DNA of 64,000 bases from Spinacia oleracea (taxonomy: Eukaryota > Streptophyta > Magnoliopsida > Caryophyllales > Amaranthaceae). Both the position numbers and the translations under genes were made by a program. Positions within the stretch are counted from its first letter, which is position 1, and each line of letters opens with the position of its first letter. The notes under the pieces are model-generated. The model was not told the DNA's origin. It did no database searches and was given only the letters and a program-made list of their open reading frames with translations. The stretch is taken from the NCBI RefSeq assembly GCF_020520425.1, contig NC_079490.1, forward strand, positions 6,386,001-6,450,000. Direction: 5' to 3'. Below, piece after piece: positions 13,336-58,432 of the stretch.

Positions 13336-13479
13336 TACTATTTACAATTGATCATCATCTTCTAAATTCTTTCCAACATACAGAGTAATATTTATGTGAG
13401 ACTTTTTTATTCGTCTTAGTGTATATTTCTAAAATATCATAATTTTATAATTGGTTATCATGCATATTTAGGTCGTTCT

Positions 13480-13850: not shown

Positions 13851-14064
13851 GATATTTGCAATGGAATCTGTAATAGTATAAAATTTGAGAGTTTTACCGT
13901 GTTCAACATATATTTTTCAAATCCATATAAGCACATTTTTCTTAGATTCTTGCCATATATTTATAATAATGAAATACGAAATATAAGAAAAGAAAGTGGG
14001 GTAAATAAATTAATCCTAACACTTATAAAGCTTTGAATTTTGATTACTATTTACGTAACAGTGG

Positions 14065-15757
14065 TATTCCTGATTTTTTTTTGGTGATTAAAGGGGGCAG
14101 AAGCCCAAACACGCAGGAACAAGAAACTAAAGAACTACAGAAAAGAAAAAGCTACAGCAACTCAAACATAACACCAGCTGTCCGTAACTCAAGCTACACC
14201 ACCAGCCTTCTCCGGCACCACTCTTGGCCAAGCCACCCCGCTTATGTCCTCCAATAAAACGGCATGAAGGTCCTTCGGTACGGCTCAAACATGACTAATT
14301 TCTGGTCTGACTCAACGCCATAATTAGCCAACCAATCGGCTACACGATTGGCCTCTCTATAGAAATGGCTCACTGTAACCTCCCAACCTGGACGAGTGAT
14401 GAGAGATTTACACTTACGAAAAATGTGAATGTACGGAGAGTTGGTTGGAGTCTCATCCACCAACATTCTAACTACTACTTCAGAGTCCACAGTAAGTTGA
14501 ACTCTCCTGTGGCCACCATTCCAAGCCATCCCAAGCCCTCTCATAACCCCTAACAATTCTGCTTTAGTACAAGTGCAAACTCCACATTGTACTGCAAACA
14601 TTTCGTGCACTTCCCCTCTATAACCTCGGATCAGACCCCCAGCCTTTCCTGGGTTTCCCTTAGCTGCACCGTCGGTATTCAACCGCACCCACCCCTCTCT
14701 TGGGCTAACCCACCTGACGTACACCTCCTTCTTCGAGCCTTTATCCATATTACCCATCAGCTCATCTCTCTCCATGGCTCTCTTAATGGTGCCAACACGA
14801 GCAAAAATAAAGCTTAACTGGTCTATAGGAATGTTCGGGGAAGGATTAAAAGTTCTCTCATTTCTTCACCTCCATAACCACCAACAGGTAACCACAAACA
14901 CCCTAGGCCATTCGTCTCCTCTAACTGAACTACCCCCCACAATGTTACTTACTACCCACTTAGCAAAGGGTAATTCGTTGACCACATGATCGTTAGGAAT
15001 CCCCAACTTCTGCCACATTCTACGAGCTACTGGGCACAACCTGATCAAGTGCTCACCATTCTCTTGCCCCCCTCCACGGGCCTTACATCTTGGATCATCT
15101 AAAAGAGTACGAGTGAACCTATTGCTATTAGTCATCCACATATCTTGAACAAGCAGCCACATGAATAGCCTAACTCTTTGAGGTGCAGGAACTTTCCAAA
15201 TATTCTTCCATTTTCTACTATCATCAGGTAGTGACTCTTCCTCAGTCCTTATAATCTTCAAGGCATAACTGATCTTGAATCCCCCCGATGGAGACCCATT
15301 GCAATAAACTTCATCTACCGCATTTTCATCTTCGATGAGTTCATGTGAGGCAACTTCTCCAAGCACACTTGCAGGCAAGAAATCTGCGAATAATTCGAAC
15401 TTCCAGCCCACATTCGGATCCCACACTTCCTTTATTGTCATATCTTGCAAGTGTATCGGGGGTTCTTGGATAGCAAGTGAAAGTAACGGTTCCTTCGTAG
15501 CCCACCGATGATGCCAAAAGAAAGTTTTAGTGCCATTTTCTACTGCCATATTCACACCTTTGCGTACTACATCAATACTACTCAAAATACCTCTCCAAGC
15601 ATTGGAGGCATTAGCCTTCTCCTTAAACATATCTATATCACACCGATTATCACAGTACTTAGCCCGCAAAACTCGAGACCACAAGGACCTTGGCTCAGTT
15701 AACACTCTCCAACCCAACTTGGCAAGGAAAGCTGAATTACCCCCAATTTCTTCTTTG
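14065..15757 (-). mobile_element. 5'-truncated non-LTR (L1-type) LINE
   Basis: Only the 3' part of the element is present. Minus-strand frame 15717-14242 encodes the end of ORF2: an LAKLGWRVLTEP-like lead, a zinc-finger reverse-transcriptase-associated domain (KNIWKVPAPQRVRLFMWLL, then C/H residues ending EHLIRLCPVARRMW), then an RNase H-like domain (WVRLNTDGAAKGNPGKAG with Asp, KAELLGV with Glu, LTVDSEVVV with Asp). The two parts are in the same frame and separated by one in-frame TGA at 14866-14868, where a Trp codon is usual (CWWLWR-stop-RNERTF). The forward T-run near 14068-14077 corresponds to the minus-strand poly(A) tail. The 5' boundary sits in a T16 run near 15757. Confidence 0.8.
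14242..15717 (-). pseudogene. LINE ORF2 C-terminal fragment (zf-RVT plus RNase H-like)
   Basis: This is the coding remnant inside the LINE: about 490 codons in one frame, with a single TGA stop at 14866-14868. The first part carries the zf-RVT module and the second the RVT_3 RNase H-like fold with acidic catalytic residues still visible. The endonuclease and the reverse transcriptase core are absent. It is a transposon relic rather than a host gene. The good frame conservation suggests a moderately young insertion. Confidence 0.75.
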
Positions 15758-15901
15758 CTTTTTTTTTTTTTTTTGTCTTTTCCTTAACAATTTCCCTTTT
15801 ATTACACTTCATAGTAGTTGTTTTACCCTTTCTTGTTAGTATATTTAACAATTTATTTGCTTCTTTTTTTTTGTCTTTTCTCTAAACACAATGTTAAACT
15901 A

Positions 15902-16198
15902 CCCCCGTTTCAAAAATGATCTTTATATTTTCCGTTTTAGTCCGTTTTATAATGTTCTTTACCCTTTGCTTTATTCTATTTTTTGACATAAAAATTTACT
16001 ATCTACCCTTCTTATCCCATAATATTTATCATTTCCCACTCACTTTCTCTTACTTTATTCATTTTTTTTCTTATACCCACCTACATTTTTACACATTTAT
16101 CTTACTTTATTCATATTTTATTATATTCAACCAACTTTTCCACTTTTGTCTTAATATTTATGTAAATACTAACTGTAAATATCTTTATGAAACAGAGG
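15902..16198. mobile_element. Stowaway-like MITE
   Basis: The left end (C)CCCCGTTTCAAAAATGATC and right end ATCTTTATGAAACAGAGG are inverted repeats of the Stowaway consensus type, flanked by TA on both sides (15900-15901 and 16199-16200). Internal words TTTTAGTCCGTTTTATAA and TCTATTTTTTGACAT recur in the element starting at 63767, so both belong to one family. It is noncoding, 297 bp. Confidence 0.75.
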
Positions 16199-19050: not shown

Positions 19051-19201
19051 GGCAAAAAGATCCTCGATTGGGTTGATTCTTAAGGTCCACCATAATTTGG
19101 CCCAATGAAGACAATCTATATAATATACTAAAAGAGAGGAAATCAATGTGGTAATGACAAATGTCACTCATTGATTCGCCTCTCTTTAAAATAAAATAAA
19201 A

Positions 19202-20350
19202 ATTATTTTTCTCTAACTATCTCTAAATAAAAAACTATTATGGACTACATAATATTATATTTTCTAAATGCAAGGAAACTATATATGCATATACGATTAA
19301 CTAAATGTACTATTGATTTTATTTATATATAACATGGATTTCTTTACATTTTACAAAGTATATGACTACTTTTCCATTATATTTTATTCTATATATACAT
19401 TATTGGATCTTCAATATATATATCTGATATCTATAAACTATAGTAAATGAAAGGAAATCAATGTGGTTAACTAACTTATTCGGCAATTTAACTTAAGCAT
19501 CATAACTTTAATGAAAGTGGCCGTGCATTATTATGTATACAAAGTATTTATTGATTATGGTCTACAAAGTTTATTTATTGATTATGGTCTATCAAGTGTT
19601 TATACTCTATTTTTAAGGTATTAAACAACTTTTAGGGATAGTAATTTTTACATTCATGATTACAAATACTAGCATTGTCATAACCAAAGTGATGCTCAGT
19701 ACTATACATGGTCTCTTTTATAGCAAATATAATACCACTCTATTATAAACTTTGTACCGTACATTGTCATAGCAAAAAAAATATTATTTTTCTCTAACTA
19801 TCTCTAAATAAAAAACTATTATGGACTACATAATATTATATTTTCTAAATGCAAGGAAACTATATATGCATATACGATTAACTAAATGTACTATTGATTT
19901 TATTTATATATAACATGGATTTCTTTACATTTTACAAAGTATATGACTACTTTTCCATTATATTTTATTCTATATATACATTATTGGATCTTCAATATAT
20001 ATATCTGATATCTATAAACTATAGTAAATGAAAGGAAATCAATGTGGTTAACTAACTTATTCGGCAATTTAACTTAAGCATCATAACTTTAATGAAAGTG
20101 GCCGTGCATTATTATGTATACAAAGTATTTATTGATTATGGTCTACAAAGTTTATTTATTGATTATGGTCTATCAAGTGTTTATACTCTATTTTTAAGGT
20201 ATTAAACAACTTTTAGGGATAGTAATTTTTACATTCATGATTACAAATACTAGCATTGTCATAACCAAAGTGATGCTCAGTACTATACATGGTCTCTTTT
20301 ATAGCAAATATAATACCACTCTATTATAAACTTTGTACCGTACATTGTCA
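19202..20350. repeat. Tandem duplication, two units with 581-bp period
   Basis: The block beginning ATTATTTTTCTCTAACTATC at 19202 and ending TTTGTACCGTACATTGTCAT near 19770 repeats almost unchanged from 19783 to about 20350. Every stretch I compared is identical. The duplication lies inside the first Helitron unit and looks recent. Confidence 0.9.
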
Positions 20351-20450
20351 TAATTAACCAAAGTGTTTAGTTCGAATAGTATGTGTAGCAATAAGGTAAT
20401 GACAATGTACGGTACAAAGTTTGTACTATTCGAATTAAACACTTGGTAGA
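20329..20450. repeat. Interleaved inverted repeats A-B-A'-B'
   Basis: A = CTTTGTACCGTACATTGTCA (about 20331) has its complement TGACAATGTACGGTACAAAG about 70 bases later. B = GTGTTTAGTTCGAATAGTA has its near-complement TACTATTCGAATTAAACAC after that. The order A-B-A'-B' interlocks the two potential stems instead of nesting them. Confidence 0.75.
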
Positions 20451-22922
20451 GTTTGTATCTATATCTATATATTATACTAAAAGAGAGGAAATCAATGTGG
20501 TGATGACAAATGTCACTCATTGATTGGCCTCTCTTATAGATATAAAAAAAAATTAAACAAAAAATTTATTTTGTTAACTTTCACTTTATAAAGTATTTGA
20601 TTCCATTTTCCTAAAAAAAGATATCATTCTATACCTGGGGAATATTTTGTAAAATCTTTTCTATATTTGTTAACAAATAACCAATGTGCTTATCTTTTTA
20701 TAAAAAATTAGTCCATTATATGGAGTACGTAGTAGGATATTTATAAAAAAAAGTTTACAGTAATCTACCGATTTGTACTTACATAATATATTAGAATACA
20801 AATAAATTAGAAAATCAATACAATATGTATAGAGTGTATAAAAAAATTACTGTAGTACTCTATAAAATTTTAACAACTAAATTCGATATTTATAGCCTCC
20901 AATGGTTGTACTATTTTTTTTATTATAGACGTATTATATTTAGCAACTAAATTCGGTAATTATCACCGCCATTGATATGATAGTAATATTTTACTACTTT
21001 TAAAAAAAGTATGTAACTTCCTTAAATATGAGCAAAAATTGCGTAATCTAATCTATCTACTACGTAATTCCTCAATTTTTTAGATGTAACTCTTTAATTT
21101 TTACATTAGCTTTTATATTCACACATCGCTATACTTTTTCTAACTTTTTGATGATTATTAATACTGTATGATGAACATAGTTATGGATTCCGTAGAATTT
21201 TGTTGACTTTGTCTAAATATTTACATAATACTACCATTTTATCTATTAATCTATATACTATACTAAAAGAGAGGAAATCAATGTGGAGCTGACAAATGCC
21301 GGTCTCTAATTTTCTCTTATAGATATACATAAATACTAAAAAAAGAAAGAAAGTATTTGACTCTATAATTATTTTGTTAACTTGCAACTCATAAATATAT
21401 TTGATTATATTTTCCTTAAAAAAAAAGCATTCTACACATGGGAATTATTTTGTAAATTATATTTTCTATAATCTTGTAACAAATATGACAAATATAAGAT
21501 TATCTTTTTATAAAAAAATAATCCATTATATGGAATACATAGCAGGATTTTTATAAAAACTTAAAAGTAGTCTACTGATATTGGATAATTAGAATACAAA
21601 TAAATTTGAAAATCAATCAAGTATATGTGATTAAGAGTGTATAATTTTTTTTTTTACTATAGTACTCTGTAATAGTATCAATTTTTGTTTAGAAATTATG
21701 TCATATACTGGATGCGGTTAATTATAACGAATGTTTACCTTTGATCATTTATTATTTGTAATTCAATGAATCTTTGCATGCATTTTCTGATAACCGATAT
21801 AGAAAATCTTATAATAGTTGAACATGTACTATCAATTATATTATTATAATATTATCATCTTTCTAAGAATTAGTGTCATATAATGAATACGGATATGAAT
21901 AACAAACTTGAACTCTAAGGTTGTCTTAAATATTTTATATGCCCAATTTCAATTAACAAAATGAAACTCCTACCCATATTTTTTTTATGGCGGGTCCTAG
22001 CCTATACTTAATCTTAAATACCAAATATTTTTTTTCCACATTCACATTATTGTAATATTTTTTCCATATATTTAAAAGTTAGTTGAAAGGAAAAGTGGAT
22101 TATTTATCGAATATAGTGATGTTATATTGTCAATGGGGCAGGTTTTTGGGAGATCCCGTGCATCCGCCCCAAATGGATTATTTGTCGAAAGTAGTGACGG
22201 GGACGAGGATAAATTTTAGATTGGACATGCACGTGTTGCTAATCCTGCATCTAATTGATTATGAATATATATAAAAAACGTTACTACTAACTTACATATT
22301 ATAATGTTTTATTTATTTACTCAATTACTCTAATCAGACAAACGGATTGTCAAAAACTCTAGAATAAGTTTTAAGATTCAAAACTATCTTACCAAAATAA
22401 AAATACACTGAGTCAAGGAGTGGGTTATTTTAGGCCGGGGTACTGGATACACCGGAGGGGGAGTCATGAAGCAGGGATAAATTTTATTGTGTACCTCTCG
22501 AGACGGGAATTGAGAGTAATGAGTATCGTTCCTATCGTGGATGAGTGTTCAGGCCTCGCCTCGCCTCAAAGTCATCTCTAACTGAATAAATTAAATGGTG
22601 TAGTTAGGTGTTAAGTGGTCGGGTAATAAAGTTAATGGGGCGACTGTGCAAGTATTAACTGGGTATTACTGTCGAGTGAATGGTGGAGAAATCATTAAGT
22701 TTATTCTTGATACAAGAGGTGAATGAGAGAGAAAATAAATTTATTTATGTACCCTTATTTGTTTTAATAAATATGACACCGTATAGGAAATAACAAATTT
22801 ATCCATCGTTAATTATAATTTGGAGGATATCTATAAGCTCTATTTTGATGATAATTTTCTACCATATTTCATATATTTTATGTTTATATTATAAATCGTG
22901 CATCGTACGGGTGTTATACTAG

Positions 22923-24532
22923 TTATCGAGCTAAGTTTTGGATCGAGGTTCGGAAATGTGGGCTGATGCAACAATAGTTTCGGTTGGAAGCACTTGGAAG
23001 CTCTAGCATGAGAATTGCGTGGAAGGTTCGATCATGAATCATGATCGAGACGAAAACCCCTTTACCTACTTTTAGGGATGTATCTAGAAAATTCATTGTA
23101 TTTAACAGTTCCTTAGAAGGTGAGAACTTTCTAAAGAATTGGAGAATTTTCTTAGAAGGAAATTATAGAATATTCTAAAGTTGAATGTCCATGGACTAAG
23201 AGGTCTATATATAGACTTCCGTATTCAATTGTATAACAACCACCACAAGTAATTTGCAAACACTTTAATCAAATCATCCTTTGAACCCACTCTTGCAAAT
23301 CATCCGGTAACCTTACACTAATGATCCAAGGGGTATTCTCCATTCCCTTTTCAAAACAATTACGACCAAATTAAAGCGTTATACGATGCTTCAAACAAAC
23401 ACCATATCACTAATCACTTTAATTACCATATGACTATACGCATGTGTAAGTAGCCAAGTATTATATCGGCACTTATAATATATATGTAAGAAACCAAAAT
23501 AACAATAAACCTATACTGCCTCCCAAAACAACCTTGAATCATTTCTTAATAATCAATCAGGGCCGTCTTAAAAAAAAAACACTACATATTAATCAAATAT
23601 GTATTTCTTAATAAATAAATAAATAAAGTATATTTGAATTACAAACCTGTTATCCACCAAAAAAAATATACGTTCTATTTTTTAAAAGTCACAAAATATT
23701 ACACATACAAATCAAATACCCTACATTATGCACTTTTATGTGACATTAATTAGACAATATCAATTAAGTAAAGATAGCTAAACGGTTAAAATATACGTAG
23801 AAAAGATAGGGAAAAAAATTCAATCTAGAAAAAATACAAAGTACTTTAAGGTATGGAGTATGTAAATGGAGAGGAACAAAAACGAAAAAGAACAAAAAGC
23901 AATAAAACATTGTACTTGGAATCAAACACTGATCTTTTGGTATTATCTCCTTTAGTCCGCAACCAACTCAGCTATACAGACAGTGTTTGTCTAAATGCAC
24001 AAGGAAAACTACTCTGTAATAGACGGTGTTTGTCTAAATGCACAAGAAAAACTAATATTTAATTTCTTTAGATTTTGGCGCCCAAAAAAATCGGTTGGAG
24101 TTTGGAGTTTCGGGGAGCATTTATGAATCAACAAGGATGATGAGAACAACAAATGCGACTTTTCCGAAAATTCAGTCTGGTCTTGAACTTCTCACGTGAG
24201 ACGAAAAAGTAAGCGAGAGGAGAGAGTAAGTTGGAGAAGAAAGATAGAGGTTTGAAAAACATAGAAGAAGGAGAAAAACAAAATAGGATAAAGTTGTGTT
24301 TCTCGTACTCGATATTTCTCTTGCTATGATCATACAGTGTACTAAATAGTAGAATCGTCGACTTTTTTATATATTATTTTCTTCACCGTAAAAGTATCGT
24401 GTAAGTATGAGTGTATGACTAATGAAAAATAAAAAATATATTGTGGTTGATAGGTTAATTAATCATGAAACTAAAAATGAACACGGCAGTAACTCTAATT
24501 ATAGCTTAAACTATAGTTAACAATATGGTACA
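22923..24532. other. Spacer within duplication copy 1; possible LTR promoter relic
   Basis: No gene is seen. Around 23190-23320 the sequence (AGGTCTATATATAGACTTCC, then CAACCACCACAAG) looks like a TATA region of an old LTR, but no ends or coding partner could be found. The rest is AT-rich, with a duplicated GTTTGTCTAAATGCACAAG word at about 23987 and 24028. The same DNA recurs at 36487-38096. Confidence 0.3.
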
Positions 24533-24540
24533 GTCTAGAC

Positions 24541-25223
24541 TAGGGATGGCAATGGGTCCAAGACCCGATCCAGATCCAGTTGGACCCGGTCCATTTTTAA
24601 GGGTCTGGGTCCAAAAAATTTAGACCCTGTGGATCTGGGGCGGATCTGGGTCTTTGTTCAATGGGGCGGGTCTGGGTCCGGGTTCAAGAACTAAATATCC
24701 AGATCCGATCCAGATCCGACCCACAGACCCATATATATAATTTTTAAAAAATATATTAAAATTTAAACATAATTCAATCTTTACATGCTAAACTTTATTC
24801 AGTTCTTATGATACTAAACTATTTAAAAATTGTTTGACGTGACATATACATAATAATATTAGAAACTTTAAATACTTATTGTATTACAGGGCTAATATGA
24901 TTTTTTTTCCTAAACAAAATTAACGAATATTCCATATTTAGTGGTTTTATTAAAGCAACGATACGTTTATATACAAAAAATGGGAGAAAAAATTACGTAA
25001 TATAAGAAAAATGAGGGACAAATTTTTTTGGAAAAGAAATACGCTTAGACCCATTTAGGACCCAGATCCGACCCTAGACCCATTAGACCCAGTGGATCTG
25101 GGTCTGGATCTGATTTTTTTAGACCCAGTGGATCTGGGTCGGATCTGGATCCACCTCTTAAAAAGCGGGTCTGGGTCTGGATCCTATCGGACCCGGTCCA
25201 GATCCGACCCATTGCCATCCCTA
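24541..25223. mobile_element. hAT-like MITE with 8-bp target duplication (copy 1)
   Basis: The ends TAGGGATGGCAATGGGTC and GACCCATTGCCATCCCTA are perfect 18-bp inverted repeats. Flanks are identical 8-bp words GTCTAGAC at 24533-24540 and 25224-25231. Subterminal regions are dense in GGATCTGGGTC / GACCCAGATCC words; the centre is AT-rich. It is noncoding and its minus-strand open frame is a by-product of the repeat. It also occurs in duplication copy 2. Confidence 0.9.
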
Positions 25224-25231
25224 GTCTAGAC

Positions 25232-26066
25232 CTGATCAAAAGGCAGACCGGGTTCGGACATGGTCGAGGGAACAAAAATATGCCCATTATGTCGGGCCAG
25301 GCCAAGCTTCGGGCCGGTTTTGTGCACAAAACCCGCTATTTCGGCAAAATTAGCTGGCTTTTCGAGCTATTTTCGAACCTGGCCAAATTTATAACTAAAT
25401 TTGTTATTTTACGTTGCCCAAAGCCCACAAATTTTTTAAAAAAAGTTCATGCCTGGCTCGAAAATCGGGCCAAAATATTCTGCCCAAAACCCGCTACTTT
25501 TAGGACCGGGTCAGGCCAGGCCCATGATGATCGGCTTTAGTACAGTCACAAAGAGCACTATTTATAAAAAATTAAAAAAACTAATGTAAAAATGTTGAAA
25601 ATTAAAAAACAAGTAAACTGTTTTACTTGATCCCGTAAACATATAAAAATGAACTTTTGTTATTGATGTCAAGGACAATGGTCAAAATCACTAAATCAGT
25701 CCATAGTTTGTGTAATTAATTGTAAATTTCATTCTTTTTCCAAAGCGTAAATCGAAGGTAACCTTGTAAAAGACATTCCGACATATTCCAAATTTCTAAT
25801 TCGTTAGACCCAGTATAAATGAAGCATTAAAAAAAAATAAGTTCCCTTTATACTCTACTTAGTGTTTATACAAAATCATTACGAATTCCGTGAAATTCGA
25901 GCCCACATCTTTACATAAAACAGACACCAAAAATGAATTCAGTCAAGATAAAAGTTGATCAGCGGCCGGCCCTGACAAATTCTCCAAGTATTCAGCTTTG
26001 AATATCTTCTACAGAATGACATCTATGCATACATCACACACAAATCCATTTCATTTCCTGCTTCCA
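25232..26066. other. Spacer and ECHIDNA 3'-flank, copy 1
   Basis: From 25232 to about 25540 the DNA is rich in GGGCCAGGCC / GGCCCG words, probably another old element edge. From 25541 it is AT-rich and leads into the 3' flank and UTR of the orphan ECHIDNA exon. The open reading frames here are short and unconvincing. Confidence 0.35.
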
Positions 26067-26155
26067 TTAAACAACACTGAAGGCTGATTGTAAAGTGGAA
26101 GTAAACTGAGATGTTAGTGTCTGTGTGGCAAACTGTTGGAATTGCTTCTTAGCAT
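26067..26155 (-). pseudogene. Orphan last exon of ECHIDNA (duplicate)
   Basis: On the minus strand, after the acceptor TTCTTCGCAG, the exon encodes DAKKQFQQFATQTLTSQFTS then TLQSAFSVV and a stop, identical to exon 6 of the ECHIDNA gene at 39632-39720. The acceptor, stop and about 765 bp of upstream intron are retained, but beyond 26920 the gene is replaced by retrotransposon sequence. No other ECHIDNA exon is present here, so this copy cannot encode the protein by itself. Confidence 0.93.
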
Positions 26156-27459
26156 CTGCGAAGAAGACGGATAATATCTCAGTGAACCAAACTAATTTCA
26201 AAACACAGCAAAGAAATACAACTAATTATATATATTTTATTTTTTTAAATACAACTAATTATAGAACTGCAATTCGTGAACTGATTGTAACAAAACCAGA
26301 TTTCATCCAAATGATTCTCACATCACATCCCACATCCTACTTCACAAGGTTGTTCTTTAAAATATAGGACGGAGTTTCCTTTTTCCAGGCATAAATGCAT
26401 CATTTCCCAGATAAACGCTAGTGCTGTTTCTTCAAATCAGACATTGAAGATATACAGTCTATGACCAAACCACTTTTACCACTAAATGCAGTAAGCCAAT
26501 CACCTACACGGTTGCAATGTGAAAGAAGCTTGAATGATAAATCTACACATAAATTTTTTTTTTTTTTTTTTGTAGCAAATAAAATCTGCACATTATAAAC
26601 CCAGTACTACTATAGGCCCCCCAAAACTCTTAAACTACCTGCTGAATGATGGTAGGACATAAATCTATCAACTCGGCATGACTTTACTAGCATCTATAAT
26701 CAGTTGATCCCCGAGATAGAATTTCCTACAATCTCTCTGACCAAATAAGGGAATTCGTCAGGCAGGAAGGGGGTGGGGGAAGTGAAAAGAAAAGGAGGGA
26801 CTTTATTAAGGGGTGAGATTGTGCCTTCTGTGAGATTGACGCTGTTCATCAATCCCAGAGACTGATCTGTACTCAAGGTCAAATAGTTCTGCTTTTTAGA
26901 AAGTCTTCTATCCTCTGACTATGACTTTTCGAAGCCTAACTATGACTTTTCGAAGGTTTTAGTTTTTCGAATGCAAAATTTCGTAAATTTAAGATGTTAA
27001 ATTAAATATTTGCGATTCTTGTTGATAAATCTTGAATTTTTGATTGACCTACTGCATATGTTTAACAAGTTTGAATGCCTAGTCTTGTTAATTATGCAAT
27101 CTAATTTGTAATTATGATTAATTTGTTGAAAATTAGAATAATTTAGAATTAATTTGATTTTCATAATTAATTGTAATTTAATTAGAAACCTATGATTAAA
27201 AACCACCATAAAAATTGTAAATTTATGATAAATTTTAAATTTTTATGACCTAGACTTGAATCCATAAAAATCGGAAATCAATTGGATAATAAATTTTCGA
27301 TTTTTCGCCCTAAAATTATGAAATTAATATTATTTATTAATTTGTCATTAATTTTAAATATAAATTTTAAATTTTTATGCGATTCGTTCATAAAACTTGC
27401 ACGCACGAAGCAATGGACGCTTCGTGTTACCCTTAAGGGGTGTTGTATAATGCGGGCAT

Positions 27460-28040
27460 GCGACGACGAGCAAGGGAGCTCGTCGCCCGTGCGGCACGAA
27501 TGCAATGAGCAAGGGCGTAGTGCACGAGCACAAGGCAGCAGCCCTGCCTTGTGTCGTGTGCCACGAGCAATGGACGAATGGGCATGGGCGAAGGGCGAGC
27601 CAAGGCAGTCGCGTGTGGGCAGCAAGCGAGCTGCGCCACAACGCGCGCTGCCTCGCACAAGAGCGCGCAGCCTCGCGCGCAGCGAGCGCAAGCTCGCGTG
27701 CCACGAGCGCTGCGCCCAGCATTGCTCGCGCGCACAGCGAGCGATGTCGCCCGCCCAGCGAGCGATGTCGCGCGCCCAGCGAGCGATGGCTCGCGCGCCC
27801 AGCGAGCGATGTCGCGCGCCCAGCGAGCGATGGCTCGCGCGCCCAGCGAGCGATGTCGCGCGCGCACTGCGAGCGATAGCTCGCGTGCGATGAACGCTGA
27901 CGCGCGCAGCGAGCACCAATGCGTGCGGAGGCTTGCGATGGGGATGCAGCAGCTATGCGACGAGCGCATGGGCTGCGCGCACATGGCCAGCAATGGCTGT
28001 GTGCGTGCGGCCCATGGGCGTGCAACGCGTAGGGTGTTTG
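27460..28040. repeat. GC-rich tandem array inside the copia element
   Basis: About 580 bases of extreme GC content in an AT-rich setting. Between about 27730 and 27870 a 21-24-bp unit built on CAGCGAGCGATGTCGCGCGC repeats six or seven times. Compositional bias opens long frames on both strands at once, none recognisable. A similar GC-rich block lies in the element's LTR (about 34940-35140). Confidence 0.85.
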
Positions 28041-31000
28041 CGTTACTATTAAAGATCGTTTTGAATGTTTAATTTGAAAATTTCAGTTCACGTAATTTTA
28101 ATTAATTTTAAAATTAATAATTTAAATTATTTTCTTGGATTTTAATTTTGAATATTGTAATTATAATAAATTTTATTTATTCTAATTATTTTACTAAAAT
28201 TAAAATCATGAATTAATTTAAATACGACTGAAATTAAATTAAACTTTTTGGATTCAATTATAAATTTATATGAGCTTTAAATTTTAATTAAATTTGTATG
28301 TTTCCGGTTAGACTAGAAATACATTTTTATGTTTAAAATTAGTAAAGCATATAAATTTATTGGTTTAAGTGGGAGCGTTTTTTAGTCATAAACTCTTGAT
28401 TAGGTCTACAAATCCTTAAGGTTAAAACAACTTGATTAGAATTAATAAGGACTGAATAATTGGTAGATTATTGGTGCCCTTGATTAATTGCTGCAAATGT
28501 TTACGTGATGCATAATGTGTTTTACTAACCAGCTATGTGGGCCATTCATGATAATGAATGGGTGAATGGTATATATTGTATATGTACTGTTTTGCAGGTT
28601 ATGAAGTGACTAGTATGGCCCAAATAGGATAGAAAATATGGTATGCGTACCATTAATTTGAATGTAATTGGTCTAAAGTACCAAAGTTATTTTTCAATTC
28701 AAATGTGGTCTGCGTACCATCAAATAGTTGTAATTAGTTATAGCTTATCCTATTTGAAGAAGATGGTGCCTCCCACGGAGATTTTCAAGACGGACTTTGA
28801 AGTCAAAGCTTCAAGATGAAGTCGGGCCATACTAGATCACAAATATCTTATGCATGTTTTAAGTTATTTATTGTTTTAAATATGTCTTAAAATGCATGAG
28901 ATCAAAAGCTTGATTATGTTGCATGATTAAGGATTTTAGTTCACTTAAAATCTAACCAACATAGTAAGAGCCTTAAGTTCCAAACTTAAAAATTGAGTTA
29001 AAAGGTGCCATGCCAAAATATACACTTGCTTGGATATCCTTTACATCAATCTAGTAATAGTTTTCGCTCAGCGAGGTGTTACTTATTGGTCCTAAAGGGG
29101 CAAGGTACACAAATAATTGTGAGTACATGTTAGTTTTGGTGAAACTCAACGATATAAGTAAGGAGTCCTTTTATGTCGTGGCAAAATCGATAGGTTTACC
29201 TAATAAGTTCTTAGACGTACCTATCAACCAAGAGTAGTTTCTAGACTATTAGCAAAAGGCTTTTGCTTACCTAAAATGTTTTAGAATTGAGTCGACAAAC
29301 TGTGCTTAATTCTTCAATGGTTTTAGGGTCTTGGAATCATTTTATTCACACCTGCCGGAACAAAAAAATCGAATAAAATGCTAATAACTTGAATTGCATG
29401 GTTGCTTTAATTTCAAGTTATTATTCATGATAAATGTTTAGACTTTGCATGCTTCAATGTATGTTTTAATTATTGTTTATAATTAAATATCTTGCACTGC
29501 AATAAATCCTTTTTGAAAGGTAACAGTAAATTTCCTCGATTGGTAGTGAATCCAAGAACGATTCACGGAAATGAGAGAAAATGAGCAATTTAAAATGTAC
29601 GTTTCTTTTAGCAACTTTTATGGTTGTTTTCGAATATCAAAATCGAATGGCAAACCAATTGGTGCTTGTGAAATCAAGATACAATGTAGTTTTGAGATCA
29701 TAAAGCATTGAGTTTAAACGCTCAGCTTTACCAATGGTTAACAACCTAATATCTTTGTCCATTTAATTCTCGAATGAGTCTAGTCCCTAGACATTCGAAT
29801 AGATCGATACTTAGAAAACTTTAGAAGCTTCTGATAAGATCATCTAGTTGAAACAAAATATTCAACGTAAATTAAAATGGTAAAGAACCTTGTTGGTGAC
29901 ATTGGACATGTCTAACAAAGTATAAAAGTCAACACTAAAGAATTCAATTCTTAAGACTATAAGAAAGGGTACAAGAAATAGGAAAACGAGGAACAAATAA
30001 AAGGAATTTACGATTCCGTTTCTACCTATAAGTTTATGTTTAAAGAGAAGTGACCTAGCAATCAAACTTCCTTGGTATCATATACCGCTTGAGGTTCTTA
30101 CTTCGGTAATAACTCAAACAATGGAAGCTAGGATACACTAATGACCTACAAGTGGGAAATGAAGCATGGCAATGCTACATTAGTTGTAGGGTCATCTAGT
30201 TTGTTTTAAGTCCTTTCAAAGGCTGGAACTTAATGGCTATTTTGTTCCATAATCAACATACCTAAATTTCTGTTTTCAAACACAGAAAGACTCACATTCA
30301 AGAAAAAAACAAAGACAATGTTTGTTTGTTTATTTGAATGAAATGGTCAATTACAGGTTGAGTCAATATGCTTGATTAAAACAAACAACTCTTTAAAGAA
30401 CTTTACTAGGTTCAAATCAACCCCTTGATTTGAGTTCCACTAATCTTTGGCATTGTTGCTTAGACCATATCAACAAGTTAACATTCAAAAAGCTCTATTT
30501 TGATAAACTTTTGAAAGTTGATTGATTTCTAGATCATTTTAAGACAACTAGTCTTACTTGTTGAAAGTAACAAAAGATATGAACTATTGTTAGAACGCCT
30601 AGACAATAGAGTTCAAAGCTAAAGAAAGATTTTATGACTTTATTATTTCACATGGATTTGAGTGAATATAGGTTTATTTACTCAATGTGATATAAGTTTG
30701 AATCTGTTTGGCTAGTTCAAAGATTCAGAAGTATAAAATCCACTTGGCAAGAAATCATAAAGATCTAGGTTAGATCATGTTCATGATTACTTGAGACCAA
30801 ATATGATCATCAATGATTGTGTGTTCACAATCTAGGTCCATAAGATATGGCATATCTACGTTGGAATGATCGAAGTCAATTAGTACTTGATTCGATCAAT
30901 GAGGAATCATAAAGACTTTTCCTATAATTTCTAAAACAAAATGCTCAACTACCACCAAACTAAACCAAATTCGTCAAAGCTATTGAAAAGTAATTTCAGA

Positions 31001-34000
31001 ATATCTTTTCATAATATATCTAAAGAGTTCCTAAACTCAGTGGGAGCTTAGTTTTTGTTATTCAACAAACTAAGGCCCAAGCATAGATATATGTTTCATT
31101 GTGATTTATTCAAATGAGACACAAGGGTATTGTTTCTACCACGAATTTTTGAGAACATAATGTTTGTTTGCTCGAAATAATGTCCTTTTGGAGATTCGTT
31201 TCCAAAATGACAAGTGGGAGAAAATAGACCTCGAAAGTTTTCGAGGCGAACAACAAACATAAACGGACATTCCGGAGGCTTTTCGAAGTGCTTCAGAAAA
31301 TCCGAACTTATTCTTTAAGGACTTTAGAAGTGGCTTTAAAGAATAGATATCTCTTAGTAGACTTTACAAGTGCTTCAAGGAGAACAGAATATTCAAAGGA
31401 CTTTCAAGTGGCTATTGATATTCTATTGTTTGATGTTCTATACCCTAGTAGGCATAGAGTTCAAGTCACTGGAACTATGAGATTCTTCTATTAGATAGTG
31501 AAGAAACATAGAGATCAGGTCAATGAAACTATGAGATTCTTCTATTAAATAGTGAAGAAATCTACAACTTGCAGTCAAACTATTATCATGTAGATTAATG
31601 AGTTTGTGACTTGTAAGAAAGCTATGACGAAACCCAGATTCCCTAAAATGGTTAGAGGCCATATATAGACTATATGTTTAATTGGTTAAAGGCCATAAAA
31701 CATACTCAATGTTTTGATGACAAAATTGAAATTTTGTTGATTTGCAAGAATAGTTTCACACCTATTGGTTGCAAGTTTGTTTTAAGGATAAAAACCATCA
31801 AACATGAAATTATGTTCACACACAAAGCTAAATTAGTTGCTAAAGGTTACAAGCAAATTCATGGCATGGATTGTGTTGAAACCTCATGCAAAATCGTAAT
31901 GCTTAAGTCTATAATTCAAGCAATGATTGCATATTGGTACATATGGCAATTGGATGACAAAACGTATTCCTCAATCAAATGATGGAATACAATATGTACA
32001 TGGTATGTCATAGAGTTTGTGGATCCAAATAAATGCTTGAAAAGGAAAGCTAGCTTATAAAATCTAAGTACAGATTTAAGCAAGCAATTGGGAATTGGAA
32101 CTGTATTTTAGTGAAACTAATAAGTATTTTAGTTTCATAAAATATACATGATTCTTATAGATATATAAGAAGTTTAGTGGGAGTACTTAAAACTTAATTG
32201 GTCCTATGTATATCACACACATATCTCTCTATTGTGAAATAACATTCAAATACTAATGACTTAGATTTGAAATTATTCATCAATAATGGACCATGGCGAA
32301 ACTTAGTACATACTGGGTATTAAGATCTATTTACAAAGATCTTATGATATTATTTTGGATTAAGTAATGGCATTTACTAAATCAAACACGAAAGTCTCCA
32401 TTGGAGATGTTCGACCCATGTGAATAAATCTAAGTAAAGGATGTTTGAACTATGTATAAGCATTTACTAAGTTAACATCAAATCTAATGAGATTCTTCAC
32501 CTATATTATATGTCAAAGAATTTAGCTGGATTCAGTATCTACTGAAATTGAATAAGCTAAAGTTACATGAATAGAATTCAATTGGGAATTATTCTGCAAA
32601 AGAATTTATCATGTATGATATAATATGAGGATCGCCAAAAACGTATCGTATGACTTTAGCCATGACGAACATATACCAATCTCTATTGATCTAAGTAAAG
32701 ATCAACTAGATTGAGATCAAGAATACTTATGGTACTTGAAAAGGTACATAGGAATAGTTCTTGATTCAAGGAAATAAAGATATGCTAAATATTGATGCTA
32801 CACGCATAAACACTGGCAAAGGATCAAGCAAGACCCTTTGGAGTTAACCATTGATAAGGACGAGCTATAGAGCATCGTGTTTTGAAATGGCAACATGGAT
32901 TGGAGACCATGAGTTGTTGCGTGGGAAATTAAAATAATAATTTCTATGTTCTAAGATATAGTTGGAGAGTCTTCCACATATCTATGAACTGCTTGGATAG
33001 GTAAATCCAAACAAAGCATCACTAGCAACCTATACAGTTGAAGTAAAAGTAATTATTGCCTAAGAAGCAATAAAACAGGGTTGTTTAAAGTTCTTCACTG
33101 AACTTGGGTAGATCACCTATCTGCTGGCTTGATGGTTCTTCATTGAAAAATGCGTAGAACCACTCTTGAAGCAAGAAAAACGTCTGCTAACTTGATGGTT
33201 CTTCATTGCAAAGTGAATAAAACCACCATCGAAGTAAGAAAGACTAGATCACATAATAAACAAACTCGAAAAGATCTTATCATCATATCTCGAAGAACAT
33301 TCGATGAAAAGGATATTAAGATTGGCAAAGCATGATAACTAAACCTATGCAACAAGTGAGAAGCAACACTCACATTGTAGCACTGGAAATCAAGCATAGC
33401 TTTGAATTCCATGAATTGTTTTAGAAGATGGGTTTAAGGCCCATGGTTATAAAACATTGGGGTTGAACATTTATCATATATGAAATGTATTTTCATATTC
33501 CATTTAATCTTGGTTTAGTATTAAATGATGAGTCCCTTCAAATTTGACGATATATTCAAGATAGACTGTCAGGACCAGTCCTGTGACTAAGAAATGTCTA
33601 TCAAGTGAACTTGAATGTCAAAGGTTGAAAATGGTCCCTAATCGGAGTTTTCTATAAAATTGGACGCATAGAAAACGTTAGACGATTAGAATGCAAGATG
33701 ACTAGTAGTTCTGTTTCTTGAACTATGTGGACATGGCAATGTCATAATCATTTGCATAGATACTTACTTTGGGAAGACTAGTATCGGACAAGACCTATGA
33801 AACTTTACTGTAAGAGATGAAAATCTGTCATAAGTAAATTTCATTAAATTATTAGACACTAAATCCTCAATACCTGAGTGATTTGAGATTACTTGTTTGA
33901 GAACTGGTTGCTTTGACGTTGACCAACCGTCGCACCGTAAAAGGAGGCTATAAAGGCAACGCTCAGGTAATCACCTATCAAACGAAGTCTAATCTCAAGA

Positions 34001-34273
34001 TCGCAAGATTGGGATTGTCCTCCCATAAATCGGGATGAGATGCTTAAAAGTTGTACAAGGCCACTCGGAGAGCTAGAAACTGTGAAATGCATGGCCGTGC
34101 TCGGATGAATCATAGGCTATGATTATCTGTTTATTTGATCAGTTGAACTCTGAAACCGAGGAACACCTCTGGACGTAATAAGGATGACAACTCTTACCTT
34201 ATGTTCAAGAGCAAGCATCGAGCGACAAAGGAATTAGGAAATGCACACTTGTCCCTAAGGACAAGTGGGAGAC

Positions 34274-35692
34274 TGAAGGAAATAATGCCCTTGGTCCAAG
34301 TATGCATTCTATGTTAAGTCTAATAAATGCGGTTCAGTATTAATTAACAAGTTAATAATTCAGTGAGATCAAGTGAGCTGAATGCCTAGCTAGAGGCCGC
34401 TTCAGTTCAAGTGGAATTAATGATATTAATCCACAGCTTACTCTTGACTGAACCCGTAGGGTCACACAAATAGTACGTAAACGGATCAAGTATTTAATGG
34501 CATTAAATACTCCATCTATGAATATTCGGAACCGACGGATCTTGGTTTCAGTGGGAGCTAAGATCGTCACAGGCAAGGAATGAATACTCCGGAAACGATA
34601 ATATTGCCGGAAACGGAAATATGGATCGTATCGGAAATATAAATATTATCCAAGTCGTAGATGTTGCCGGAAACGGAAACATGGTACGTGTCGGAAAATA
34701 TTATCGGAAATGGAAATATTGCCAGAATCGGAAATATTGCCGGAAACGGAAATATTGTCAGAATCGGAAATATTACCGGAATCGGAAAATAATTCCGGAA
34801 ACGGAAATATTAAATATTTGTTCGAAACGGAAATTAATTCCGGAATCGGAAATATTAAATATTGTTCGTATCGGAAAAGAATTCCGGAATCGGAAAATTT
34901 AATCGGAAGCGCATCGTACGAATAAGCATCGGACGAGGCCTGCCGGACGAGGCCCAGCACGAAGCCAGGCCATCGCCCAGCAAGCCAAGCGCGCCGCACA
35001 AACAGCCACGCCAGGCCCAGCGCAAGGCCAGGCCCAGCAGGCTGCGCGCAGCGCGCAGCGTGCACAGCGCGCACAGCACGCGCAGCGCGCAGCGCGCGCG
35101 GGCGCTGAGTGGGCTGCTGCTCGCGCGCACGCATGGGGCCCATCGTGGCTGCCGTGCGTGTGTGTGCAAGTGTTTGTGTTCGTGCACGTTTCCTAAAACA
35201 TGCAGAGTTCGGTTAATGATTAAATTCCTAATTCTATTTGATAAATTAATTAAATTAGAGTTCTTGTAGGATTCTAGGTTTAATTAATTTGTATCTGAAT
35301 AGGATTTCGATTCCCTTTCCATACCGCTATAAATATGAGGCTAGGGCTCACAATTTATAACACAAGTTTCAAAGTATTTAAAGTGAGTTTTTGAGAGAAA
35401 AATTCAGTCACACATTTGCCTATAAAGTGCCGAAAATAATAGTACCTTAAGGGCGATTCTAGTTGGTCAATCTTAAGGCGGATCCGGACGTGCTGTGGAC
35501 TATCTACGGAGGGACGACACTTGGAGTCATAAAGACTTGTTCTTGTTCGGTTCGGGCGCAGCTAGGGAGGGCACGCAACAAAGAGTATGCATCTAAATTA
35601 TGCTATATGATTATGTGTAAATAATATGTAATCCTGGGTTAATGGTTGTTTCCGCATGATTTATGTAATATCATATGTATCATAACCTAACA
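34274..35692 (+). repeat. LTR (right end) of the copia element
   Basis: It begins TGAAGGAAATAATGCCC right after a purine-rich tract (GGACAAGTGGGAGAC) and ends CCTAACA, giving TG...CA termini over 1419 bp. Inside, 34585-34900 holds many degenerate CGGAAATATTGCCGGAA units, 34940-35140 is GC-rich, and TATAAATATGAGGC near 35330 is a plausible promoter box. No second copy of this LTR is present in the window. Confidence 0.85.
34585..34900. repeat. CGGAAATATT minisatellite inside the LTR
   Basis: More than a dozen degenerate units of the type CGGAAATATTGCCGGAAA spaced by about 18 bp. The units may bind host factors or simply be slippage-driven expansion; the sequence does not tell. Confidence 0.85.
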
Positions 35693-36486
35693 GTCAATGG
35701 GGCAGGTTTTTGGGAGATCCCGTGCATCCGCCCCAAATGGATTATTTGTCGAAAGTAGTGACGGGGACGAGGATAAATTTTAGATTGGACATGCACGTGT
35801 TGCTAATCCTGCATCTAATTGATTATGAATATATATAAAAAACGTTACTACTAACTTACATATTATAATGTTTTATTTATTTACTCAATTACTCTAATCA
35901 GACAAACGGATTGTCAAAAACTCTAGAATAAGTTTTAAGATTCAAAACTATCTTACCAAAATAAAAATACACTGAGTCAAGGAGTGGGTTATTTTAGGCC
36001 GGGGTACTGGATACACCGGAGGGGGAGTCATGAAGCAGGGATAAATTTTATTGTGTACCTCTCGAGACGGGAATTGAGAGTAATGAGTATCGTTCCTATC
36101 GTGGATGAGTGTTCAGGCCTCGCCTCGCCTCAAAGTCATCTCTAACTGAATAAATTAAATGGTGTAGTTAGGTGTTAAGTGGTCGGGTAATAAAGTTAAT
36201 GGGGCGACTGTGCAAGTATTAACTGGGTATTACTGTCGAGTGAATGGTGGAGAAATCATTAAGTTTATTCTTGATACAAGAGGTGAATGAGAGAGAAAAT
36301 AAATTTATTTATGTACCCTTATTTGTTTTAATAAATATGACACCGTATAGGAAATAACAAATTTATCCATCGTTAATTATAATTTGGAGGATATCTATAA
36401 GCTCTATTTTGATGATAATTTTCTACCATATTTCATATATTTTATGTTTATATTATAAATCGTGCATCGTACGGGTGTTATACTAG

Positions 36487-38096
36487 TTATCGAGCTAAGT
36501 TTTGGATCGAGGTTCGGAAATGTGGGCTGATGCAACAATAGTTTCGGTTGGAAGCACTTGGAAGCTCTAGCATGAGAATTGCGTGGAAGGTTCGATCATG
36601 AATCATGATCGAGACGAAAACCCCTTTACCTACTTTTAGGGATGTATCTAGAAAATTCATTGTATTTAACAGTTCCTTAGAAGGTGAGAACTTTCTAAAG
36701 AATTGGAGAATTTTCTTAGAAGGAAATTATAGAATATTCTAAAGTTGAATGTCCATGGACTAAGAGGTCTATATATAGACTTCCGTATTCAATTGTATAA
36801 CAACCACCACAAGTAATTTGCAAACACTTTAATCAAATCATCCTTTGAACCCACTCTTGCAAATCATCCGGTAACCTTACACTAATGATCCAAGGGGTAT
36901 TCTCCATTCCCTTTTCAAAACAATTACGACCAAATTAAAGCGTTATACGATGCTTCAAACAAACACCATATCACTAATCACTTTAATTACCATATGACTA
37001 TACGCATGTGTAAGTAGCCAAGTATTATATCGGCACTTATAATATATATGTAAGAAACCAAAATAACAATAAACCTATACTGCCTCCCAAAACAACCTTG
37101 AATCATTTCTTAATAATCAATCAGGGCCGTCTTAAAAAAAAAACACTACATATTAATCAAATATGTATTTCTTAATAAATAAATAAATAAAGTATATTTG
37201 AATTACAAACCTGTTATCCACCAAAAAAAATATACGTTCTATTTTTTAAAAGTCACAAAATATTACACATACAAATCAAATACCCTACATTATGCACTTT
37301 TATGTGACATTAATTAGACAATATCAATTAAGTAAAGATAGCTAAACGGTTAAAATATACGTAGAAAAGATAGGGAAAAAAATTCAATCTAGAAAAAATA
37401 CAAAGTACTTTAAGGTATGGAGTATGTAAATGGAGAGGAACAAAAACGAAAAAGAACAAAAAGCAATAAAACATTGTACTTGGAATCAAACACTGATCTT
37501 TTGGTATTATCTCCTTTAGTCCGCAACCAACTCAGCTATACAGACAGTGTTTGTCTAAATGCACAAGGAAAACTACTCTGTAATAGACGGTGTTTGTCTA
37601 AATGCACAAGAAAAACTAATATTTAATTTCTTTAGATTTTGGCGCCCAAAAAAATCGGTTGGAGTTTGGAGTTTCGGGGAGCATTTATGAATCAACAAGG
37701 ATGATGAGAACAACAAATGCGACTTTTCCGAAAATTCAGTCTGGTCTTGAACTTCTCACGTGAGACGAAAAAGTAAGCGAGAGGAGAGAGTAAGTTGGAG
37801 AAGAAAGATAGAGGTTTGAAAAACATAGAAGAAGGAGAAAAACAAAATAGGATAAAGTTGTGTTTCTCGTACTCGATATTTCTCTTGCTATGATCATACA
37901 GTGTACTAAATAGTAGAATCGTCGACTTTTTTATATATTATTTTCTTCACCGTAAAAGTATCGTGTAAGTATGAGTGTATGACTAATGAAAAATAAAAAA
38001 TATATTGTGGTTGATAGGTTAATTAATCATGAAACTAAAAATGAACACGGCAGTAACTCTAATTATAGCTTAAACTATAGTTAACAATATGGTACA
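36487..38096. other. Spacer within duplication copy 2
   Basis: Same content as 22923-24532: AT-rich, a possible old LTR promoter relic near 36754-36884, and no gene recognised. Confidence 0.3.
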
Positions 38097-38104
38097 GTCT
38101 AGAC

Positions 38105-38787
38105 TAGGGATGGCAATGGGTCCAAGACCCGATCCAGATCCAGTTGGACCCGGTCCATTTTTAAGGGTCTGGGTCCAAAAAATTTAGACCCTGTGGATCT
38201 GGGGCGGATCTGGGTCTTTGTTCAATGGGGCGGGTCTGGGTCCGGGTTCAAGAACTAAATATCCAGATTCGATCCAGATCCGACCCACAGACCCATATAT
38301 ATAATTTTTAAAAAATATATTAAAATTTAAACATAATTCAATCTTTACATGCTAAACTTTATTCAGTTCTTATGATACTAAACTATTTAAAAATTGTTTG
38401 ACGTGACATATACATAATAATATTAGAAACTTTAAATACTTATTGTATTACAGGGCTAATATGATTTTTTTTCCTAAACAAAATTAACGAATATTCCATA
38501 TTTAGTGGTTTTATTAAAGCAACGATACGTTTATATACAAAAAATGGGAGAAAAAATTACGTAATATAAGAAAAATGAGGGACAAATTTTTTTGGAAAAG
38601 AAATACGCTTAGACCCATTTAGGACCCAGATCCGACCCTAGACCCATTAGACCCAGTGGATCTGGGTCTGGATCTGATTTTTTTAGACCCAGTGGATCTG
38701 GGTCGGATCTGGATCCACCTCTTAAAAAGCGGGTCTGGGTCTGGATCCTATCGGACCCGGTCCAGATCCGACCCATTGCCATCCCTA
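38105..38787. mobile_element. hAT-like MITE (copy 2)
   Basis: Same element as at 24541-25223, with the 18-bp inverted ends and the GTCTAGAC flanking duplication. It was copied passively as part of the large duplication. Confidence 0.9.
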
Positions 38788-39631
38788 GTCTAGACCTGAT
38801 CAAAAGGCAGACCGGGTTCGGACATGGTCGAGGGAACAAAAATATGCCCATTATGTCGGGCCAGGCCAAGCTTCGGGCCGGTTTTGTGCACAAAACCCGC
38901 TATTTCGGCAAAATTAGCTGGCTTTTCGAGCTATTTTCGAACCTGGCCAAATTTATAACTAAATTTGTTATTTTACGTTGCCCAAAGCCCACAAATTTTT
39001 TAAAAAAAGTTCATGCCTGGCTCGAAAATCGGGCCAAAATATTCTGCCCAAAACCCGCTACTTTTAGGACCGGGTCAGGCCAGGCCCATGATGATCGGCT
39101 TTAGTACAGTCACAAAGAGCACTATTTATAAAAAATTAAAAAAACTAATGTAAAAATGTTGAAAATTAAAAAACAAGTAAACTGTTTTACTTGATCCCGT
39201 AAACATATAAAAATGAACTTTTGTTATTGATGTCAAGGACAATGGTCAAAATCACTAAATCAGTCCATAGTTTGTGTAATTAATTGTAAATTTCATTCTT
39301 TTTCCAAAGCGTAAATCGAAGGTAACCTTGTAAAAGACATTCCGACATATTCCAAATTTCTAATTCGTTAGACCCAGTATAAATGAAGCATTAAAAAAAA
39401 AATAAGTTCCCTTTATACTCTACTTAGTGTTTATACAAAATCATTACGAATTCCGTGAAATTCGAGCCCACATCTTTACATAAAACAGACACCAAAAATG
39501 AATTCAGTCAAGATAAAAGTTGATCAGCGGCCGGCCCTGACAAATTCTCCAAGTATTCAGCTTTGAATATCTTCTACAGAATGACATCTATGCATACATC
39601 ACACACAAATCCATTTCATTTCCTGCTTCCA

Positions 39632-42600
39632 TTAAACAACACTGAAGGCTGATTGTAAAGTGGAAGTAAACTGAGATGTTAGTGTCTGTGTGGCAAACTG
39701 TTGGAATTGCTTCTTAGCATCTGCGAAGAAGACGGATAATATCTCAGTGAACCAAACTAATTTCAAAACACAGCAAAGAAATACAACTAATTATATATAT
39801 TTTATTTTTTTAAATACAACTAATTATAGAACTGCAATTCGTGAACTGATTGTAACAAAACCAGATTTCATCCAAATGATTCTCACATCACATCCCACAT
39901 CCTACTTCACAAGGTTGTTCTTTAAAATATAGGACGGAGTTTCCTTTTTCCAGGCATAAATGCATCATTTCCCAGATAAACGCTAGTGCTGTTTCTTCAA
40001 ATCAGACATTGAAGATATACAGTCTATGACCAAACCACTTTTACCACTAAATGCAGTAAGCCAATCACCTACACGGTTGCAATGTGAAAGAAGCTTGAAT
40101 GATAAATCTACACATAAATTTTTTTTTTTTTTTTTTGTAGCAAATAAAATCTGCACATTATAAACCCAGTACTACTATAGGCCCCCCAAAACTCTTAAAC
40201 TACCTGCTGAATGATGGTAGGACATAAATCTATCAACTCGGCATGACTTTACTAGCATCTATAATCAGTTGATCCCCGAGATAGAATTTCCTACAATCTC
40301 TCTGACCAAATAAGGGAATTCGTCAGGCAGGAAGGGGGTGGGGGAAGTGAAAAGAAAAGGAGGGACTTTATTAAGGGGTGAGATTGTGCCTTCTGTGAGA
40401 TTGACGCTGTTCATCAATCCCAGAGACTGATCTGTACTCAAGGTCAAATAGTTCTGCTTTTTAGAAAGTCTTCTATCCTCTGACTCCTCTCCCCACTATT
40501 ACCTGATTCGCTAGTATGAGCCTAGTATGAGCCTGGGTACGGGATCGCAATTCGCAACCTACGTTGCTAAGTTAGACCAAAAATGTACCATTTTCATGTT
40601 ATAATTCGCCTTTTCGGTTCCCGGTTCGTAGGGTGATTAGAGAATTAGGTAACACTGCCTCTCCCCTTTCTAAAAGCCAAAAAAAGCATTAACCAAGGTG
40701 CTGTGTACTTAACCAAGGTGCTACACTAGGTGCTGTGTACTTAACCAAGGATCCGGATCCAAAGAGGATGTTCGCAAATCTTAAGCTAGCTAAAACAACC
40801 TAATACATCCTCCTCTAAAGTAAATGGATATGAAATTCCCACCCCTAACCCGTTAGTTCCTCTTAAGATATTAATTAAGAAATACTGGACTTTAATCATA
40901 CAACTACCCTTCAAAAACCGCAGTCTTTATCTGGTTACATATCTGCTCAGTTTTAAACTATTTATGCTGAAAATATACCTAGTTGGACCTGCACACTCAT
41001 TTCCTCATCAAAGAGGGCCAAATTATTCCCTCTTCTACACCTATATGGCTATATGTATATATTAGCAGTTGCCCTTAGACCTTCACAAGTCAATGCAATA
41101 GCTTTACCAGAGAAGGGATGGTCAATCAGCATTTAGCAATTGCAAGGAATTGAAAAGCACCAACAACTAGGCAAACAGCCAAATAGCTGCCCCCAGTTTA
41201 TCAGATCTAGCTCATTAAGCTAGCACTAATGCATCGGAAATGCATGCTTCGAATGGTTTAGGTAACCTCCTCCATCCCAACTCCCAAATAATATGTATCC
41301 TGATAACACAAAGTGATTATCAACTTCTATCATAATAGAACTTTCTTTTGCAATAGATCATATTAGATAATACTTTGATGGCTTTTCCAGAGAAAAACCA
41401 CCCAGTTGCAACTTGATTTGCAAACAGAAATGCAAAAGGATCTTTACTTATTGCATTCTAGTGTCTAAGTAATCATACACCTATCCAGAAAGGAATTAAC
41501 TTAGAGTTCCCCTCAAACTAAGCAACCATAAACGGACGCACAAAATTACGGAGTAGCATTTAATTCCGTTCAGATAATCAACAATGACCTGTGCAGATTT
41601 CACTCACCTTTGCGGCATTTAGTAAAGCCAACAATGTTTGCAATGCTGAGGGACAAACACACTGCTACAACAAGGAGATAATCAGCTTGAAACCGTATCA
41701 GAGAAAATATTCCGAGAATGATCCACAAAGCAGCCTACAGAGAAGAACAATGAACAAACCGAACTTATATTACAAACGTAACAAAACAAGAATCACATAT
41801 TGTAGAAAACATAGTACCAAAACAAGACCTCACAGAAATTCAGGAACAGGATGTTATATTTAAGAAAGTACCACGTGACAGTTAATTTGCAATGCCCTAA
41901 AGTATAAGTGCTACTTATGTGCAAGGAAGGACTACATAGTTTTTAAAGGAGACAAAATTAAAAAAGTAACTTCACTCACTGTAAGATAAAGGCTCCACCA
42001 AAACAGCCACGAGTCCTTCTTGTTCATGCGAGCCAATGACTGTACAACACAAGAAGATGATATTACAAAGAGAAACTCAGTAAGCCGCACCTTTGGGCTA
42101 AAAAAACATTGACAAGTAAACTTTGTCTAGTGCAATAATGAATACTGACCTCTGGATCAAGAGACTCAAACTTCCATATACTTTCACCCAAATCATTAAT
42201 TTCATTCCACCACCTCAAACCAACCAAAATGCGACCACTTACATTCTTGACAACCCAAAAGTCAAGAGCAGCAAGGAGAACAGTAACCACAAAGATAATC
42301 ACAAAGTTGTCAAAGAAAAGTGCAGAGAGAATGTAAAACGCCAAAGCTGCACCCTGCATAACAAAACCCCCATGATATTACAGTGTTGCCACAACTAAAA
42401 TAGTTAAGAATGAACCATCTACTAATAGGACCAAGCGTGCCATGGCTTCTTATAACAACATACCTTGAAAAAAACATGGAAGAAACATGTCCTTGGGTTT
42501 GCATAGTTTTCGGTAGGAGCCTGTAAATCAGAAGTAGAATATATTAATTATTGGAAAGTGAAATGAAGAGATTCCAGATTTCATGTTAAATTAAATGACA

Positions 42601-58410: not shown

Positions 58411-58432
58411 TACTATGCAGAAGGTTATTAAT

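Follow-up and report, generated by a model that had tools for sequence, protein, structure and literature searches.

A probably genuine and recent duplication of host DNA around a 5'-truncated copia retrotransposon in Spinacia oleracea

Illegitimate recombination of plant LTR retrotransposons yields truncated LTR elements and joins without long homology, and a sister or homologous chromosome has been invoked as the recombination partner in such cases; in these truncated and tandem structures, it is the element or its LTR that is duplicated (PMC11899658). Tandem duplications attributed to alternative end joining are kilobase direct repeats with a few base pairs of microhomology at one new join (PMC7407515). 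False duplications in assemblies likewise consist of near-identical neighbouring copies, possibly allelic. The spinach locus described here shares features with all of these. Unlike the retrotransposon cases, it is flanking host DNA that is duplicated, and unlike the end-joining duplications, the join has a retrotransposon leader as one of its partners, with the element lying between the two copies. Set against assembly false duplications, the line is reportedly homozygous, there is no gap, the join shares 3 bp and no third full-length place was found among the scored candidates. We regard the locus as instructive and probably real, an event of a kind already known.

The window, that is the whole 64-kb stretch of DNA that was analysed (C4:6386001-6450000), has the order X-Y1-copia-Y2-Z, where Y1 and Y2 are the copies of the duplicated block and X and Z its outer flanks (Table 1). 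Comparison of the window with itself by BLAST placed 22129-26920 and 35693-40485 in one alignment of 4793 columns with 99.958% identity. The sole substitution is C at 24705 against T at 38269, and the sole indel lies in the A-run at 25828/39393, where copy 2 has one A more (39393); the initial annotation had counted these same two differences by eye, and its count was exact. The block was also searched for in the whole genome (894,210,420 bp in 242 contigs), and among the scored candidates it matched at full length in two places, both in the window. The substituted site lies in a MITE that we take to be hAT-like by the usual marks of that class. Two relatives of this MITE were fetched; one, on another chromosome (L074), carries C at the equivalent position, and the other (L075) had no match to the motif searched. 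The T of copy 2 therefore looks like the derived state. The family of this MITE is young: the best other scored place (C3:2218680) is given as 100% identical, and the rest range from 94 to 99%. A second direct duplication lies 1.8 kb upstream of the block, amid an array of Helitron-like ends: 19193-19771 and 19774-20352 (579 bp) have two differences, both within the first 9 bp, the other 570 bp being identical.

Table 1. Features of the duplicated locus, in positions of the window
Feature	Position	Strand	Remarks
Helitron-like repeat holding the copia insertion site	21248..22922	+	dispersed copies; 3' part (from 22129) also opens copy 2
Y1, block copy 1	22129..26920	+	native-looking left flank before it; 99.958% to copy 2
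GTCAA, presumed right-hand copia target duplication	22129..22133	+	again at 35693-35697 behind the LTR; left one absent with the left LTR
hAT-like MITE inside copy 1	24541..25223	+	GTCTAGAC on both flanks; contains substituted site 24705
Orphan copy of presumed last exon, TVP23/ECHIDNA-like gene	26070..26225	-	copy of 39635-39790
Junction Y1/element	26918..26955	+	ACT microhomology, then ATGACTTTTCGAAG and 21-bp unit again
Copia element, 5'-truncated, stop-ridden	26921..35692	+	without left LTR and start of leader
Right LTR	34274..35692	+	1419 bp, TG...CA
Y2, block copy 2	35693..40485	+	begins at LTR end, continues into gene in Z; T at 38269
Same hAT-like MITE in copy 2	38105..38787	+	placed by adding 13564 to the copy 1 coordinates; apparently derived T at 38269
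TVP23/ECHIDNA-like gene region	39635..42377	-	PF05832 matched by 41603-41734 and 42066-42377; copy 2 holds the presumed last exon
Small MITE right of block	40494..40657		164 bp; direct repeats CCTCTCCC(C) start at 40486 and 40658

The 3' part of a dispersed repeat that starts in X makes up the first ~795 bp of the block. Helitrons have a 5' TC and a 3' CTRR with a hairpin and insert between A and T; the termini of this repeat, TCTATATACTATACTAAAAG and ...CTAG, are compatible by eye with the 5' TC and 3' CTRR, and we presumptively call it Helitron-like on that basis. Of the 38 loci listed by the search, three belong to the window itself; the remaining 35 represent 30 distinct places. Position 22128/22129 is uninterrupted in 27/27 of the places that span it (at most 15 gap letters per 200 bp); the remaining three of the 30 (L035, L037 and L038) match the query in part without spanning this position and are outside the 27. 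The closest other copy is on C5 (98.4% over 21343-22923), a match that is not a strict date for the repeat in the window, as the latter may be older than the one on C5. The sequence at X|Y1 is ATATT|GTCAA, and the right LTR ends exactly at that point before copy 2. Since all the spanning places are uninterrupted, copy 1 presents the site in its uninterrupted form, and the left outer border looks native. We assume, from common practice with copia elements, that GTCAA is a 5-bp target duplication; the right-hand copy agrees with the uninterrupted site and the left-hand counterpart is lost, so the presumed duplication is seen on one side. The scenario first proposed, which starts from a copia inserted at 22128/22129, is supported in part.

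The element between the copies has the right LTR only, as first described: self-comparison gave no second LTR copy within the 64-kb window. This LTR has TG...CA ends and the purine-rich AAGTGGGAGAC directly before it, and relatives have both LTRs. Pieces of the internal region matched the copia reverse transcriptase (PF07727; E 1.7e-6, 28.3 bits, below the Pfam cut-off of 31.6) and the GAG-pre-integrase domain (PF13976; E 9.7e-5, 22.5 bits, below the cut-off of 28.4), so that both domains expected of a copia element are represented by sub-cut-off matches. Both matching pieces are stop-free; the copia body has no intact frame. A primer-site-like sequence and a purine tract are likewise found, the tract in the window element and the primer-site-like sequence in its relatives: of 29 family members fetched, 27 have the primer-site-like GTG(G/T)TAT... 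right after the LTR end, and then 228-278 bp up to the motif at which the window element is broken. The two exceptions are L044 (680 bp of different sequence) and L055 (LTR end unaligned). Because these 27 relatives have an LTR end, primer site and leader at this place, the window element is, by this comparison, without its left LTR and ~260-270 bp beyond it. Across the genome, the LTR's best relatives show 98-99% identity, some with a second LTR match ~9 kb off (C1:92985519-92996033, for example).

A search with the body (29000-32000) gave 5,428 first-look candidates, of which 40 places were scored, the window and 39 others; 39/39 of the latter match at 97-98% over 1.9-2.7 kb, in a comparison of overall identity and not stop by stop. 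To judge from these matches, the stop-ridden body is common to a large family, and its decay probably predates insertion in the window since the other places share it. Decay of the element in place was rejected on the same evidence. Stop-ridden copies common to a large family must, we infer, have been mobilised in trans.

At the other end of the structure, the Y2|Z border also looks native, because the TVP23/ECHIDNA-like gene runs continuously across it. The last exon of this gene is presumably the one in copy 2, an assignment that follows the typical sequence of the family, and the orphan exon of copy 1, submitted alone, gave no Pfam match. Parts of the gene region (within 40865-42000) also have copies elsewhere. 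One at C2:16029036-16029970 (94%) covers the exon 41603-41734, and 41065-41266 recurs at many places (95-96%); these copies are possibly captured gene fragments or transposons inside introns. Further to the right, four stretches of 54443-57519 have collinear matches (~77-82%) in L041, immediately beyond the right edge of the window, as would be expected if a gene had been tandemly duplicated at an earlier time, and 58432-59128 is a tandem array of a 111-bp unit (~6.3 copies, 84%).

With both outer borders looking native, 26920/26921 is the abnormal join, where Y is spliced into the copia leader ~260-270 bp past the position of the left LTR. The end of Y1, ...CCTCTGACT, continues as ATGACTTTTCGAAGCCTAACTATGACTTTTCGAAGG across this point. 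The two sides share 3 bp (ACT), a microhomology that leaves four possible positions for the join. In trials at least 3 bp of microhomology occurred in 6.2% of random joins, so the support it gives to end joining is weak and mild. As in microhomology-mediated duplication, there is one new join, with 3 bp, between native-looking borders. How the join was made depends on what the element carried. Of the 29 fetched relatives, 28 carry a single 21-bp unit in the leader, slightly varied among them, and L043 carries two units, and the exact two-unit 38-mer occurs at two genome places, window 26919-26956 and L043 (C5:87218579-87218616). L043 is the nearest fetched relative in 3/4 segments; in 26956-27420 seven others are equal or closer. 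If the element already carried the two-unit tandem, Y was joined to it at ACT through 3 bp of shared sequence, without filler. Against this, the genome holds LTR relatives at 99%, no more distant than L043 (98.1% over 1.24 kb), and a genome search showed that the exact two-unit 38-mer is absent from their places. For this reason a 7-nt filler (ATGACTT) templated from 21 bp downstream is a live alternative to the 3-bp join. Such templated filler is ascribed to alternative end joining (PMC7407515).

The structure could also come from an assembly in which an empty allele (X-Y) was strung to the tail of an insertion allele (copia-Y-Z). Such a merge would look like this structure, and near-identity suits allelic copies. 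Against it, the window has no N, no third full-length place of the block was found among the scored candidates, and assemblers do not join on the 3 bp shared here, which a simple assembly bubble does not explain. The probable source line, inferred to be Monoe-Viroflay, is moreover reported as homozygous, with more than 10 generations of selfing and only a homozygous k-mer peak, and was assembled with Canu from 118x PacBio CLR reads after shearing to ~20 kb (PMC8668906). The two full-length places, the reported homozygosity and the 3-bp join make a merge unlikely, and the duplication is probably real rather than an assembly error, in so far as sequence can tell.

We consider the best explanation to be insertion of a defective copia followed by microhomology end joining with an empty chromosome, and we hold it to be moderately probable. 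The element would first have inserted at 22128/22129 of one chromosome, and the Y end from the empty homolog would then have been joined illegitimately to the leader at 26920/26921. The join needs a Y without copia before it, and therefore either an empty homolog or a truncated cDNA captured during integration. The structure is accounted for by a single insertion plus a single illegitimate join. In favour of this sequence of events are the near-identity of the copies, the uninterrupted site, the continuous gene, a family with left LTR and leader, decay before insertion, the 3-bp microhomology, the two full-length places of Y and the reported homozygosity of the line. It presupposes a full-length insertion allele with ATATTGTCAA adjoining the left LTR, and none is known from the one assembly. 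Against it, the right end of the block at a MITE target-site edge is left unexplained, the microhomology is weak, and end joining between homologs is less usual than between sister chromatids. The initial annotation had proposed unequal recombination with a chromosome free of the insert. The join at 26920/26921 was retained and an empty homolog is preferred as the partner. Homologous unequal crossing-over was rejected, as the abnormal join shares only 3 bp. In our literature search on hemizygous insertions and unequal crossing-over, no paper contained all the terms used.

The capture of an incomplete copia cDNA in one step is not decisively set apart from insertion and later end joining, and we rate it as unlikely. 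The right LTR end would have been joined precisely to the start of Y, while microhomology would have tied the ragged left end of the cDNA to a sister or homologous chromatid broken at the end of Y; the 4.79-kb repeat would then be a giant target-site duplication and the full-length allele would never have existed. A single event without a heterozygote, the precise right and ragged left ends, and the fact that element and block may share one age speak for it. It requires a simultaneous second break 4.79 kb away, however, and as nearly the whole leader is present the cDNA would have been cut just short of the left LTR. Retrotransposon capture at breaks was reportedly observed in a mouse-zygote study; we know of no described plant case.

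The age of the duplication bears on another route. With substitution rates of 6.5e-9 and 1.3e-8, one substitution per block corresponds to ~16,000 and ~8,000 years (Poisson limits ~200-89,000), and the duplication would be recent, about 8,000-16,000 years old. Of the two suggestions made at first, a very young age or a haplotype merge, the latter is unlikely for the reasons given. LTR-divergence dating is impossible for an element with one LTR; published mean ages of spinach copia elements are ~1.2 million years (PMC6337768), far above the age of the duplication. A larger tandem duplication, with copia inserting into the second copy and a deletion then running from the end of copy 1 through the left LTR into the leader, would give the same structure without a heterozygote. 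We give this little credence: three events would have to fit in the short time set by one substitution in 4.8 kb, and self-comparison showed no remnant of a larger duplication within the window.

The feature that insertion followed by end joining leaves aside is the right end of the block. Its last position, 40485/40486, adjoins the first base of the direct repeat flanking the small MITE, so that both block ends coincide with transposon target cuts, the copia site on the left and the MITE target-site edge on the right. Nine dispersed relatives of this MITE are listed, with starts at 40492-40494 (six) or 40522 (three) and ends in every case at 40656-40661. Its ends are imperfect inverted repeats, and whether the direct repeat counts 8 or 9 bp depends on the element start chosen. 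hAT MITEs have inverted ends and an 8-bp target duplication; since the repeat may be 9 bp, the class may be hAT or Mutator-like. We put the chance of both ends coinciding at ~1%, which is a guess and not a computation, for a coincidence noticed after the fact in a region rich in transposon edges, with four possible placements of the join. A hairpin-driven stall at the MITE was unsupported (DNA fold z -0.90, 32/200 shuffles as good). That the rearrangement happened all at once, by the joining of two transposition-made breaks, one from a one-ended copia integration and the other from target cutting or excision of the MITE, is very unlikely; if true, two unrelated transposons would together have duplicated host DNA including the presumed last exon of a gene.

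The case is clean and young: uninterrupted site, truncated element and repair join can each be read. By the preferred route of insertion and end joining, a retrotransposon insertion in the hemizygous state may cause end joining to duplicate the host DNA beside it.
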